Of a stretch of DNA of 64,000 bases, positions 2,921-22,384 are shown piece after piece. Positions within the stretch are counted from its first letter, which is position 1, and every line of letters starts with the position of its first letter. Below the pieces are notes generated by a model. That model was given only the letters and a program-made list of their open reading frames with translations, ran no database searches and was not told where the DNA came from. The stretch lies in NCBI GenBank assembly GCA_002753395.1, contig PEAB01000002.1:1-64000 (forward strand), in the 5' to 3' direction. Both the position numbers and the translations under genes were made by a program. The stretch is from Nitrospirae bacterium MYbinv3. GTDB taxonomy: Bacteria; Nitrospirota; Thermodesulfovibrionia; Thermodesulfovibrionales; Magnetobacteriaceae.

Positions 2921-3202
2921 TTGGTAGTCCTGCAGATGTAGTGATATTCAATCCCCCTCCCTTGATGGGAGGGGTTAGGGGTAATGCTGTTGACTTAAGC
3001 ATTAATATGTATGCACATGGGCAATATTTTAAGCAACCACTCCTGATATTTACAGGGTCAAGGGAACAAGTTCCCTTGTGGGAGGGTCTAAGGGAGGGCA
3101 AAGCCCTCCTTTTTTCATCTTTACATCCTTAAGTCAACAGCATTAGGGGTTAGGGGAGGGTGTTAAGTTTACTGTCACCACTACTTGTGCAGGATTACCG
3201 AA
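2921..3202. mobile_element. Composite MITE: outer element with imperfect terminal inverted repeats
   Basis: The left end at 2921-2946 (GGTAGTCCTGCAGATGTAGTG) and the right end at 3173-3202 (CACTACTTGTGCAGGATTACC) are imperfect inverted repeats of about 25 bp. The body begins and ends with a CCCTCCCTT...GGGAGGGGTTAGGGG palindrome and is split by a family A element (2982-3145). The right-hand 60 bp recurs at about 16660-16720 beside rsmA, which shows a dispersed family. There is no coding capacity beyond chance reading frames. Confidence 0.7.
2982..3145. mobile_element. Family A MITE, full length, nested inside the outer element
   Basis: The ends are perfect 18-bp inverted repeats: TAATGCTGTTGACTTAAG at 2982-2999 and its complement at 3128-3145. 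They are flanked on both sides by the 11-bp direct repeat GGGGTTAGGGG (2971-2981 and 3146-3156), which looks like a target-site duplication. Inside are two GC-rich hairpins, one around CAAGGGAAC/GTTCCCTTG and one around GGAGGGC/GCCCTCC. This is the cleanest copy in the window. Other copies or fragments lie near 116, 9412, 16505, 22165, 47362, 53598, 54593, 61600 and 63170. Confidence 0.8.
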
Positions 3203-3207
3203 ATAAC

Positions 3208-3395
3208 GTATCCTCTTTAAAAAGCATGGTAAATTGTTTATGGTTTCAAGATTATGGATTCCCACTTTAGTGGGAATGACAGTAATAAGCGTTTTCCAAA
3301 TATGTCATTCCACAGCCTGCCTCTGGCTTGAACAGGGGTAAACAGGAATCCAGAAAACGTAAAAGCATAGTTATCAAGAAATATAAAGAAGATAC
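3208..3395. mobile_element. Family B MITE-like repeat
   Basis: This is a ~188-bp element with imperfect ~25-bp terminal inverted repeats (GTATCCTCTTT...CATGGTAA at the left, the complement of GTATCTTCTTTATAT at the right). It contains the short palindromes GGATTCCC..GGGAATGACAG and TCATTCC...GGAATCC. Near-identical or related copies are at 16237-16424, 34199-34387 and 58680-58846, with partial ones at 13741-13886, 17517-17637 and 27443-27472. It abuts the outer composite MITE. Bases 3396-3586 up to pilT are AT-rich leader with no further gene. Confidence 0.75.
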
Positions 3396-3586: not shown

Positions 3587-4660
3587 GTGGCTAGAATAGA
3601 TGCCTTTTTTAAATTGATGAATGAGCAAGGGGCATCAGACTTACATATGGTTGCGGGTTCTCAGCCCATTCTGAGGATTCGAGGTGAGATGGAACGCGTT
3701 AAGTACAAGGAGATGGAAAACGAGGAGCTAAAGGGGATGCTCTACGAAATAGCCCCTGAGGACAAGGTCAAGCTGTTTGAGGAGACTGGAGATGTGGACT
3801 TTGCTTACGAGGTTCCGGGTTTGGGCAGATACAGGGCCAACTTCTTTCAGCAAAAGTGGGGGGTTGGGGCTGTGTTTAGGTCAATCCCTAGTAAGATTCA
3901 GACGGTAGAAGATCTAGGCCTGCCGCTAGTGTGTAAAAAATTTGCAGCTCTCAACAAGGGGCTTGTCCTAGTAACCGGACCAACGGGCAGTGGTAAATCA
4001 ACGACCTTGGCTGCAATCGTAGACCATGCAAATAAATCGCGTAAAGACCACATACTGACAATCGAGGACCCCATCGAGTTTGTCCATAAGAGCCAGAGCT
4101 GCATTGTCAATCATAGAGAGGTTGGACTCCACACCAAGTCGTTTACGGCTGCCCTTAGAGGCGCCCTGCGTGAGGACCCAGATATCATACTCGTTGGAGA
4201 AATGAGAGACCTTGAGACGATCCAGCTAGCCCTTGAGGCCGCCTCCACTGGTCACCTTGTCTTTGGCACCCTGCACACACAGAGCGCTACCAAAACGGTG
4301 GACAGGGTGGTTGACGTCTTTCCGTCTAGTCAGCAGGCACAGATCCGTACAACCCTCTCAGAGGCGTTAAAGGGTGTTGTTGCACAAAACCTGTTTAAGC
4401 GCGTTGATAAAAAAGGCAGATGTGCTGCCCTTGAGATATTGGTTATCACCTACGCCGCGGCCAACCTCATAAGAGAGGCAAAAACACCACAGTTGGCATC
4501 CGTCATGCAGACTGGAAAAAAGCTTGGGATGCAGACACTGGATGACGCAATCCTTGAACTGCTCAACAAGGGGTGGATCAGTCCTGAGGACGCCTACGAC
4601 AAGTCGATAGACAAGAAACGGTTCGTCCCATTTCTTAAGGAACCGCCCCCTGAGTTCTAA
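3587..4660 (+). CDS. pilT: Type IV pilus retraction ATPase PilT
   Basis: PilT is a hexameric cytoplasmic ATPase that depolymerises type IV pili for twitching motility. The 357-residue sequence has the N-terminal PAS-like domain (MNEQGASDLH), Walker A GPTGSGKST (131-139), the Asp box and Walker B IILVGEMRD, and the His box THSA-type GTLHTQSATKTVDR. It also has the PilT hallmark close to AIRNLIREGK (here ANLIREAKTPQLASVMQTG), which separates retraction from assembly ATPases. It starts at GTG 3587, 6 nt after a GGGAGG ribosome site. A second PilT-type gene follows after a 303-bp repeat-bearing gap. No pilus assembly genes are in the window. Confidence 0.93.
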   Translation: MARIDAFFKLMNEQGASDLHMVAGSQPILRIRGEMERVKYKEMENEELKGMLYEIAPEDKVKLFEETGDVDFAYEVPGLGRYRANFFQQKWGVGAVFRSIPSKIQTVEDLGLPLVCKKFAALNKGLVLVTGPTGSGKSTTLAAIVDHANKSRKDHILTIEDPIEFVHKSQSCIVNHREVGLHTKSFTAALRGALREDPDIILVGEMRDLETIQLALEAASTGHLVFGTLHTQSATKTVDRVVDVFPSSQQAQIRTTLSEALKGVVAQNLFKRVDKKGRCAALEILVITYAAANLIREAKTPQLASVMQTGKKLGMQTLDDAILELLNKGWISPEDAYDKSIDKKRFVPFLKEPPPEF

Positions 4661-13667: not shown

Positions 13668-13945
13668 TATTAATCTACGTGGTCAAGTAAGCAGCACACC
13701 ACCTGATCAGCTCTGTCCACTTTAGTTTTTTGAGCTGGTTTATAGTTTTGCACTTTCTGGATTCCTGCCTACGCAGGAATGACATTTAACAGCTAAAAAC
13801 CCTATTTGCTGTCATTCCCGCGAAAGCGGGAATCTATTTTCAAGAGTTGCATAAAATGCTGGTTTATAAAAAAGTGCAAAAGTATAGTATATTTTATAGT
13901 AAAATAAATTAAAGTTGTGTATCTTTTTGAGATGGATGGACTAAG
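13668..13945. repeat. Intergenic family B variant with 16-bp terminal repeats
   Basis: Bases 13741-13756 (TATAGTTTTGCACTTT) and 13871-13886 (AAAGTGCAAAAGTATA) are inverted repeats with one mismatch. They bound a 146-bp unit that contains the two family B palindromes, GGATTCCTGCCTACGCAGG and GTCATTCCCGCGAAAGCGGG. The termini differ from the standard family B ends, so the palindromic cores are shared by different outer elements. This divergent gap must also hold promoters for the flanking genes, none clear enough to call. Confidence 0.65.
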
Positions 13946-16236: not shown

Positions 16237-16709
16237 GTCTTCTTTATATCTCATGGTAATTATGCTTTTAAGATTTCTGGATTCCTGCTTACCCCTGTTC
16301 AAGCCAGGGGCAGGCTGTGGAATGACATACTTGGAAAACGCCTATTACTGTCATTCCCACGAAAGTGGGAATCCATGTCTTGAAACCATGAAAATAAATT
16401 TACCATGTTTTTTTAAGAGGATACGTTCTTAATGTATTATAGCAAATCAGGCATTAAGAAGGGTGCATAAGAAAGTCGTGGGGATTTTGGAATAGTTGGA
16501 ATAGAATGGAGGGCTTTGCCTCTGCCGCAGGGGTTCGCAACCCCCTCCCTCAGACCCACCCACAAGGGGGACCAGTCCCCTTGACCCTGTAAATGTCAGG
16601 CGTGGCTGCTTAAAATGTCGCCCATGTGCATATATATTAATGCTTAAGTCAGCAGCATTAGGGGTTAGGGGAGGGTGTTAAGTTTCCTGTCACTACTACT
16701 TCTGCAGGA
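16237..16709. repeat. Repeat-filled gap: family B, C fragment and family A copies
   Basis: A family B element (16237-16424) directly abuts the deacetylase stop codon. A single family C end (GGGTGCATAAGAAAGTCGTG) lies at 16461-16480. A reversed family A copy follows at about 16505-16660, ending in CTTAAGTCAGCAGCATTA (16643-16660). After this comes the right-hand end of the outer composite MITE (about 16661-16720), which runs a few bases into the 3' end of rsmA. No gene is seen. Confidence 0.7.
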
Positions 16710-17480
16710 CTACCAGTTTTTTTGTGTGAGGGTGTCAGAGAGTCTTGCGAAGTCATCTAATGAGAGTGTTTCTGGCCTTGCCATAGGGTCTATGCCGATA
16801 TCGGTTAGTATTGTCTTGATATTGGAGCCATATGGTTTAAGGCTGTTGGCAAGCGTCTTTCTTCGCTGCAGGAAGCTTGTTCTTATCACCTTAAAAAATG
16901 ACTCCTCGTTGCAGACTTTTACAGCAGACCTTGGCAGGGGAGAGAAACTTACCACTGCTGAGTCGACCTTTGGGGGTGGTCTAAAGGCCTCCCTGGGTAC
17001 AACGAACTCTAAACGGCTTGAACTTCTGTACTGTACCATCAACGTCAGTACGCCGTAGTCCTTGCAGCCTTTGAGGGAAGTGATTCGCTTGGCCACTTCC
17101 TTTTGCAGCATCAGTATTATGCCCTGAAGTCCTTGTCCCTCTTCTAATATTTTAAAGATTATTGGAGTTGTCAGGTTGTATGGGATGTTAGATACTACTT
17201 TGAATCTCTCTATGGCCTTGAAATCAAACTGTAGAACGTCCCCTTCAATCAGTTCAAGGTTGGCGCTGTTTTTAAAGCGCGACCTTAAGAGCTTACACAG
17301 ATACGGGTCTATTTCTACTGCTATGACTCGCTGTACTCTTTCAAGAAGACCCTCAGTGAGCACCCCTCTGCCTGGTCCGATCTCTACTACCGTATCCTCA
17401 GGGGTGAGTTGCGCACACTCCAGCATTCTCTGAAGGATGCCTAAGTCGCCAAGAAAATGTTGACCATACCTCCTGCCCAC
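16710..17480 (-). CDS. rsmA: 16S rRNA dimethyladenosine transferase RsmA/KsgA
   Basis: RsmA dimethylates two adjacent adenines (A1518/A1519 in E. coli numbering) near the 3' end of 16S rRNA during 30S maturation, using SAM. The 256-residue protein opens RRYGQHFLGD, as the family does. It has SAM motif VVEIGPGRGVLTEGLL, the acidic EIDPYL loop and the catalytic NIPYNLTTPI motif. It starts at GTG 17480. The last codons overlap the end of the MITE at about 16720 (TTTGTGTGAGGG), so the extreme C-terminus (LTQKNW) may have been supplied by the element. It is flanked by repeats on both sides. Confidence 0.93.
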   Translation of the reverse strand: MGRRYGQHFLGDLGILQRMLECAQLTPEDTVVEIGPGRGVLTEGLLERVQRVIAVEIDPYLCKLLRSRFKNSANLELIEGDVLQFDFKAIERFKVVSNIPYNLTTPIIFKILEEGQGLQGIILMLQKEVAKRITSLKGCKDYGVLTLMVQYRSSSRLEFVVPREAFRPPPKVDSAVVSFSPLPRSAVKVCNEESFFKVIRTSFLQRRKTLANSLKPYGSNIKTILTDIGIDPMARPETLSLDDFARLSDTLTQKNW

Positions 17481-22010: not shown

Positions 22011-22384
22011 ATTACCCTGTACCCTGCAAGCAATCTCCCAAAGGATGTACTCCGTTAGCTTTACAATTTTCTATGTCTTATTACAGCTTGAACACAACAC
22101 AATGTATGGTAACATAAAATATTATGTGTTTTCACTATAACAAAAGCAGGGGATCAAGATAAGTATATGCACATATGTAAAATTTTAAGCAAACACGCCT
22201 GACATTTACGGGGTCAAGGGGACTGGTCCCCTTGTGGGTGGGTCTAGGGAGGGCAAAGCCCTCCCTATTCATTTTCACAGCCTTAAGTCAACAGCATTAG
22301 GTCTGAGGGAGGGGGTGGCTTCTGCGTTACAAGGTATTAAATATTTGTCATTTTTTTACCATTTACTGTATCATACTACGTAGG
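22011..22384. repeat. Divergent gap with family A element
   Basis: Bases about 22165-22299 are a family A copy in the forward sense. It contains the phrase GCCTGACATTTACGGGGTC, both GC-rich hairpins and the right terminal repeat CTTAAGTCAACAGCATTA (22282-22299), followed by GGTCTGAGGG. Its left terminal repeat is absent. Bases 22300-22384 are the leader of the next gene. No gene is seen. Confidence 0.65.

Follow-up and report, generated by a model that had tools for sequence, protein, structure and literature searches.

The nested MITEs near the start of the window (the whole 64,000-nt stretch of DNA analysed here) are very probably the work of a mobile element with strong target choice, and represent one of 23 landings of its family at the same base of a second mobile element. 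We propose that the inner element is a non-autonomous IS4-family (IS4-subgroup) MITE, whose ends would be recognised in trans by an IS4-family transposase from an element that shares the 18-bp ends. This transposase would join the two ends to a G-rich target at positions staggered by 11 bp, which would give rise to an 11-bp duplication; the target motif would be carried by the outer, IS1-type MITE (site GGGGTTAGGGG) and by a hairpin repeat, T2 (site GGTCTGAGGGG). The genome holds many copies of the inner element with target duplications, as well as uninterrupted versions of the outer site, filled versions with the inner element at a fixed position and in both orientations, and transposase genes beside the same ends.

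At the window locus, the outer element is an IS1-type MITE of 102 bp (plus strand), which is split by the inner element and the duplicated 11 bp, and so extends from 2923 to 3199, or 277 bp in all. Its left inverted repeat, GGTAGTCCTGCAGATGTAGTG, lies at 2923-2943 on the plus strand, and its right inverted repeat, GGTAATCCTGCACAAGTAGTG, at 3179-3199 on the minus strand (read from 3199 to 3179); by eye, the two are identical at 18 of 21 positions. The copies of the 11-bp target GGGGTTAGGGG are at 2971-2981 and 3146-3156, both on the plus strand, and directly between them is the inner element, an IS4-type MITE of 164 bp (2982-3145, plus strand). The inner left (L) inverted repeat at 2982-2999 (plus) and the right (R) one at 3128-3145 (minus) are exact matches to the 18-mer TAATGCTGTTGACTTAAG, and a repeat search extends the arms to 21 nt at 95% complementarity. 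The direct repeat was detected as a 12-mer because the inner end contributes an A; the true repeat is 11 bp. A sequence-only reading of the locus had described nested MITE-like elements with perfect 18-bp inner ends, and both points are borne out; the span that it gave for the nest, 2921-3202, needs slight correction, as the actual limits lie just inside it.

The nest is located between a minus-strand ORF starting at 2749 and a plus-strand ORF starting at 3587, and it interrupts no long ORF. An 8-bp duplication around the outer element is absent from the window copy, where 7 of 8 positions differ. A terminator-like hairpin with a T-run is found inside the inner element (3090-3112, plus strand) as a consensus match only, since the consensus scan of the element found 1 against 0.9 expected in shuffles; the fold of the whole inner element has a z of -7.8, a value owed in part to the inverted ends.

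Immediately beside the nest (3208-3395) lies a third repeat family. It has at least 40 long genome matches, itself included, among the best 40 of 366 candidates scored, and cores resembling it start at 13833, 16372, 17630 and 58793 on the minus strand and at 3258 and 34249 on the plus strand. There is also a second nest in the window, at 16440-16714 (minus strand). It consists of an outer right arm, CCCTAACCCC and an inner L end, after which T2-type sequence replaces the inner R half, and the whole resembles a remnant of the same nesting left by recombination. The minus-strand ORF 16710-17480, which we take to be rRNA dimethyltransferase-like, has its TAG stop codon within the outer-type end that starts at 16714 (minus strand), so the outer-type insertion may have determined where this gene stops.

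The sampled genome is a draft of 3.71 Mb in 175 contigs, and the window is part of one of them (C72). The inner 18-mer has seven matches in the window at up to 3 mismatches, compared with 0.10 expected, and 238 in the genome at up to 2 mismatches, compared with 0 for the reversed control. When the best 40 of 404 first-look candidates were scored, the 164-bp element had at least 41 genome matches, itself included, and at least 33 spanned 150 or more of the 164 bases. The search for further copies, which the sequence-only reading had proposed, yielded 51 two-ended inner copies of 105-192 bp and 85 outer left arms. Among the two-ended inner copies the 11-bp repeat is exact in 26 and has at most 2 mismatches in 40, with 3 or more mismatches in the remaining 11. 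Because many inner copies share one target, a crossed-flank control was needed, in which left and right flanks were taken from different copies; it gave 8.5% exact repeats and 19.3% with up to 2 mismatches. Exact duplications are present as well at unique target sites, namely GGGGTTATCCT (L195) and GGGGTGAGCCA (L021). As had been claimed from the window copy, insertion did duplicate an 11-bp target: the control and the uninterrupted outer copies, which show the site once, both bear this out. The inner element is thus short and gene-less, with inverted ends, a target duplication and many copies, as is characteristic of a MITE.

Some copies depart from this pattern. The two flanks of the inner copy derive from different targets in L038 and L044, which fits recombination between copies without proving it, and in L001, L035 and L122 degenerate ends may have been paired wrongly. 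Within the window, inner copies that keep one end and have T2-type flanks lie at 22299 (minus), 53598 (plus) and 63170 (plus).

The clearest evidence for target choice comes from the outer family. Every one of the 85 outer left arms found in the genome at up to 3 mismatches was read: 52 are uninterrupted, 23 are filled with an inner TIR at the site, 9 have a right arm that is diverged or absent, and 1 carries another insert. The right arm is seen in 16 of the filled arms and unseen in 7. Twenty-two of the 23 have the inner TIR after outer base 59; in the other one it comes after base 58, with one base fewer upstream. The L end points toward the outer left arm in 15 filled arms and the R end in 8, a direct reading that replaces an earlier split by loose matching (11 L, 11 R and 1 unclassified), and several inner subfamilies are represented. 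In the uninterrupted copies, GGGGTTAGGGG occurs exactly once in 35 of 52; the right arm is at its usual place (base 58-63) in 45, and the site is shortened (base 40-55) in the other 7. The outer element covers 85 x 102 bp, or 0.23% of the genome, so that by simple arithmetic area alone predicts about 0.3 landings in it among some 120 insertions. Two further loci, L196, in which a partial inner copy is joined to a shortened outer left arm, and L313, where an inner end with a T2-type flank follows outer base 46, are read as recombinants, with no simple landing at the site.

The hairpin repeat T2 is the second landing target. When 181 distinct end contexts were sorted by loose flank matching, 92 fell in T2, 50 in the outer site and the other 39 in neither. 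These counts are approximate, because the matching was loose and at least two of the ends taken in (L001, L003) do not belong to outer arms. These contexts are fewer than the 238 genome matches because some places were not fetched and near-identical copies were collapsed. The 34 duplications with no more than one mismatch comprise nine distinct 11-mers, among which GGGGTTAGGGG (14) and GGTCTGAGGGG (13) dominate, and their consensus is about GG[GT][GC]T[GT]AGGGG, with G-rich arms. Across 24 distinct reconstructed targets, G1, G2 and A7 are invariant, and T5 and G8 each vary once; if the other repeat copy is used, one target has A at position 2.

Many inner copies retain the R end only, and these are distributed unevenly. 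With all classes being approximate, T2 orientation A (in which CCCCTCAGACC is next to R) has 17 paired and 31 solo R ends, compared with 7 paired and 1 solo in orientation B (Fisher p 0.016 versus A) and 20 paired and 3 solo at the outer site (p 4e-5 versus orientation A). The inner element contains a segment like CAAGGGGAC..GTCCCCTTGACCCC, and T2 has a similar one just past its site; in orientation A, the two form direct repeats. A deletion between the direct repeats of MITE and T2 would drop the L end and join R to the T2 flank, and the one-ended remnants probably arose in this way. The solo R ends of orientation A run to the shared segment in 27 of 31 cases. Twenty-two of the 27 lack an inner-like continuation, and many of them enter flanks that are seen beyond T2 in paired copies. 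The other five continue into inner-like sequence (window 22299, L194, L209, L213 and L215), and these, together with the four solo R ends that stop short of the segment, count against the preferred explanation.

For mobility, the window copy was expected to depend on a transposase elsewhere, and the genome has candidates for both elements. A DDE_Tnp_1 profile search gave eight matches. In one of them, on contig C101, the transposase is followed by an inner TIR with one mismatch, GGGGTTAGGGG, and the same outer right arm as at the window nest. In addition to DDE_Tnp_1, the C101 protein matches the IS4 model NF033592 with 150 bits (cut-off 115), the match beginning at profile position 100. It has the YREK motif as Y204-2-R-3-E211-6-K (YFKRWAIEGGYRDEK) and a D-77-D-115-E spacing, with the two D residues picked by eye. 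The available part of PMC2266710 gives Y(2)R(3)E(6)K and D(60-110)D(100-150)E for IS4-type transposases, and by this motif and spacing the C101 protein belongs to the IS4 family. For the IS4 subgroup, the same part of that source describes a duplication of 10-13 bp and ends of the form -AATR--------WTW----; TAATGCTGTTGACTTAAG fits this pattern by eye, and the inner family's duplication is 11 bp, exact in 26 of 51 copies. A C101-type transposase presumably moved the inner MITEs.

The other DDE_Tnp_1 matches in the draft are fragments, one of them interrupted, and no complete IS4-type copy was seen there, the copies being truncated, interrupted or cut by contig ends. A single-ORF IS4 element of 1400-1650 bp was sought, and the genome itself and its congener G298 gave only copies that are incomplete or at contig ends. 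A candidate for the autonomous element that had been anticipated is found in part, as a transposase with an adjoining TIR, and its complete copy is unseen. At L223 (C117, about 360-520), an IS4-family transposase copy is broken by a further insert of ~165 bp.

The transposase has a match at E ≤ 0.001 in 5 of 19 genomes of the taxonomic family, the source genome included. In G298, an exact TIR follows the transposase end in all eight distinct 3' ends fetched, one of which is also present in MAG nDJH13bin1; the G297 match covers a 26-residue end at the edge of a contig, with an exact TIR beside it. In G295 and G303 the transposase is 26-27% identical, and the fetched loci have no such TIR at up to 4 mismatches. 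The exact inner TIR occurs in 2 of 295 genomes sampled from the phylum, Nitrospirota, a sample that excluded G297 and G298; the two are the source genome and the congener G241. At up to one mismatch, inner TIR matches number 23 in G298, 5 in G241 and 30 in G297. Two short IS derivatives in G298 have flanks, CTCAGNCC, that read into both ends, inverted and with no duplication. A short element in G241 (L227, contig C3) shares the 18-bp ends apart from a mismatch in one of the two; its contents (GTCTGAACCA...TGGTTCAGAC) are quite different, and CCCCTCCCCCC and CCCCTACCCCC form its flanks.

The outer family appears to have a parent of another kind. One of the DDE_Tnp_1 loci (L063) has an outer-type end adjoined by another ORF, which encodes an IS1-family transposase (PF03400, 75.9 bits, cut-off 24.1; NF033558, 108.3 bits, cut-off 100). 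This transposase has 21 genome matches, several at contig ends. Among 20 of its loci fetched, 14 have outer-type ends, and 6 have none at up to 2 mismatches. At L344, GGTAGTCCTGTAAAGGTAGTG and GGTAGTCCTGCAGAAGTAGTG face each other, 1073 bp end to end; the transposase frame there holds a stop, and no 8-bp duplication is evident. The outer element is exactly 102 bp long in 20 of 48 copies examined. An 8-bp duplication is exact in 14 of 68 two-ended outer copies and has at most one mismatch in 21, compared with 0.09% and 0.8%, respectively, for crossed flanks. Duplications of IS1 elements range from 8 to 9 bp. A transposase between similar ends and an 8-bp duplication thus place the outer element and its parent with the IS1 family. 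Outer-arm matches at up to 3 mismatches number 1 in G298, 20 in G241 and 3 in G297, and many of those in G241 are parts of elements whose contents differ.

The recurrent nesting could also have come about by co-spread, that is, by the copying of a few nested ancestors through IS1-type transposition or recombination, in which case the 23 nestings would reflect few events. A filled copy could indeed move as a unit, as an exact 8-bp duplication surrounds the whole nest in L033, L056, L130 and L154, and L014, L015, L130, L145, L154 and L159 have one inner subfamily in one orientation. Against this, the filled copies show two orientations at the same base and several inner subfamilies, and the same motif preference is evident at T2 and at unique sites, with similar targets in congeners. 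Co-spread is weakened by these observations and may hold for a subset of the filled copies; as the source of the nesting in general we find it unlikely. We infer that the landings at the outer site were mostly independent. The sequence-only reading had taken copies without duplications and with shared flanks as a sign against insertion. Many copies literally do share their flanks, but this does not refute insertion, because the duplications are kept and the host flanks of the outer copies differ.

Another possibility concerns what is recognised: the target might be a DNA structure such as a G-quadruplex, with no reading of sequence. The outer site, GGGAGGGGTTAGGGGAGGG, is a canonical quadruplex motif, and among 34 reconstructed targets the four-run G3 pattern is matched by 13 and missed by 21, with 8 of the 34 falling short of a G2 pattern as well. 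At unique sites, the targets of L021 and L195 have no four G3 runs yet keep GGGGAGGGGTNA, although L195 matches the G2 pattern. With the four-run G3 pattern limited to this minority, a quadruplex is not required for targeting, and we rate structure-based recognition as slightly less likely still than general co-spread; the transposase appears to read sequence. Finally, short direct repeats are common wherever there are G-runs, so the locus could in principle be a chance inverted repeat in G-rich DNA with no mobile element at all. The 18-mer counts in window and genome set against the reversed control, the uninterrupted sites and the crossed-flank control make a chance origin wildly improbable, and we reject it.

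Target choice by the IS4-subgroup MITE alters what the nesting can say about age. At the window locus the outer copy preceded the inner insertion, as had been proposed. The extension of that order to the families is not supported: a fixed base in 23 of 85 outer copies implies that nesting follows target choice, and since both families are also present in congeners, nesting tells little about their ages. None of the 51 two-ended inner copies is long enough to enclose a whole outer element, but this absence of reverse nesting says little, because only ~0.2 would be expected by area (arithmetic). Where an inner element prefers a target in the outer one, nesting can be a misleading guide to the age of families. 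More tentatively, and with slightly less than even confidence, we suggest that the inner family uses other mobile repeats as landing pads: its transposase would read a motif spread by the IS1-type MITE and T2, each jump of the outer element would make a new site, and insertions in one orientation of T2 would collapse by deletion to immobile one-ended remnants.

Several known systems are comparable. The inner family resembles the IS4 subgroup in its ends, 11-bp duplication, YREK motif and DDE spacing, and differs in that the inner element is a gene-less 164-bp derivative whose complete parent is unseen in the draft. The outer family resembles the IS1 family through its 8-bp duplications and the genome's IS1-transposase copies with outer-type ends, and differs in being only 102 bp and gene-less. 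IS231A of Bacillus, also of the IS4 family, has a preferred target in another mobile element, Tn4430; its target consensus, GGG(N)5CCC, is symmetric, whereas that of the inner family is asymmetric. In its available part, PMC2266710 credits IS231A with a degree of insertion specificity and some IS4-subgroup members with "spectacular apparent insertion specificity". Another parallel is ISRm22, an IS4-family element for which the available text of PMC1525189 describes nine copies in REP elements of S. meliloti 1021, and which PMC2266710 places in subgroup IS4Sa. To the extent of those descriptions, both cases involve an IS4-family element landing in repeated palindromic sequence; there it is an IS entering REPs, whereas here a MITE enters a second mobile MITE and a hairpin repeat, and uninterrupted copies of the outer MITE allow comparison. 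No report of this nesting is apparent from the titles and abstract openings of the literature matches listed. The significance is modest outside the circle of bacterial transposition specialists, for whom the 85 target copies in one genome, 52 uninterrupted and 23 filled, amount to a natural experiment on IS4-subgroup target choice. IS4-family elements with strong target choice are already known; the present case stands out for how well its targets, uninterrupted as well as filled, are represented.
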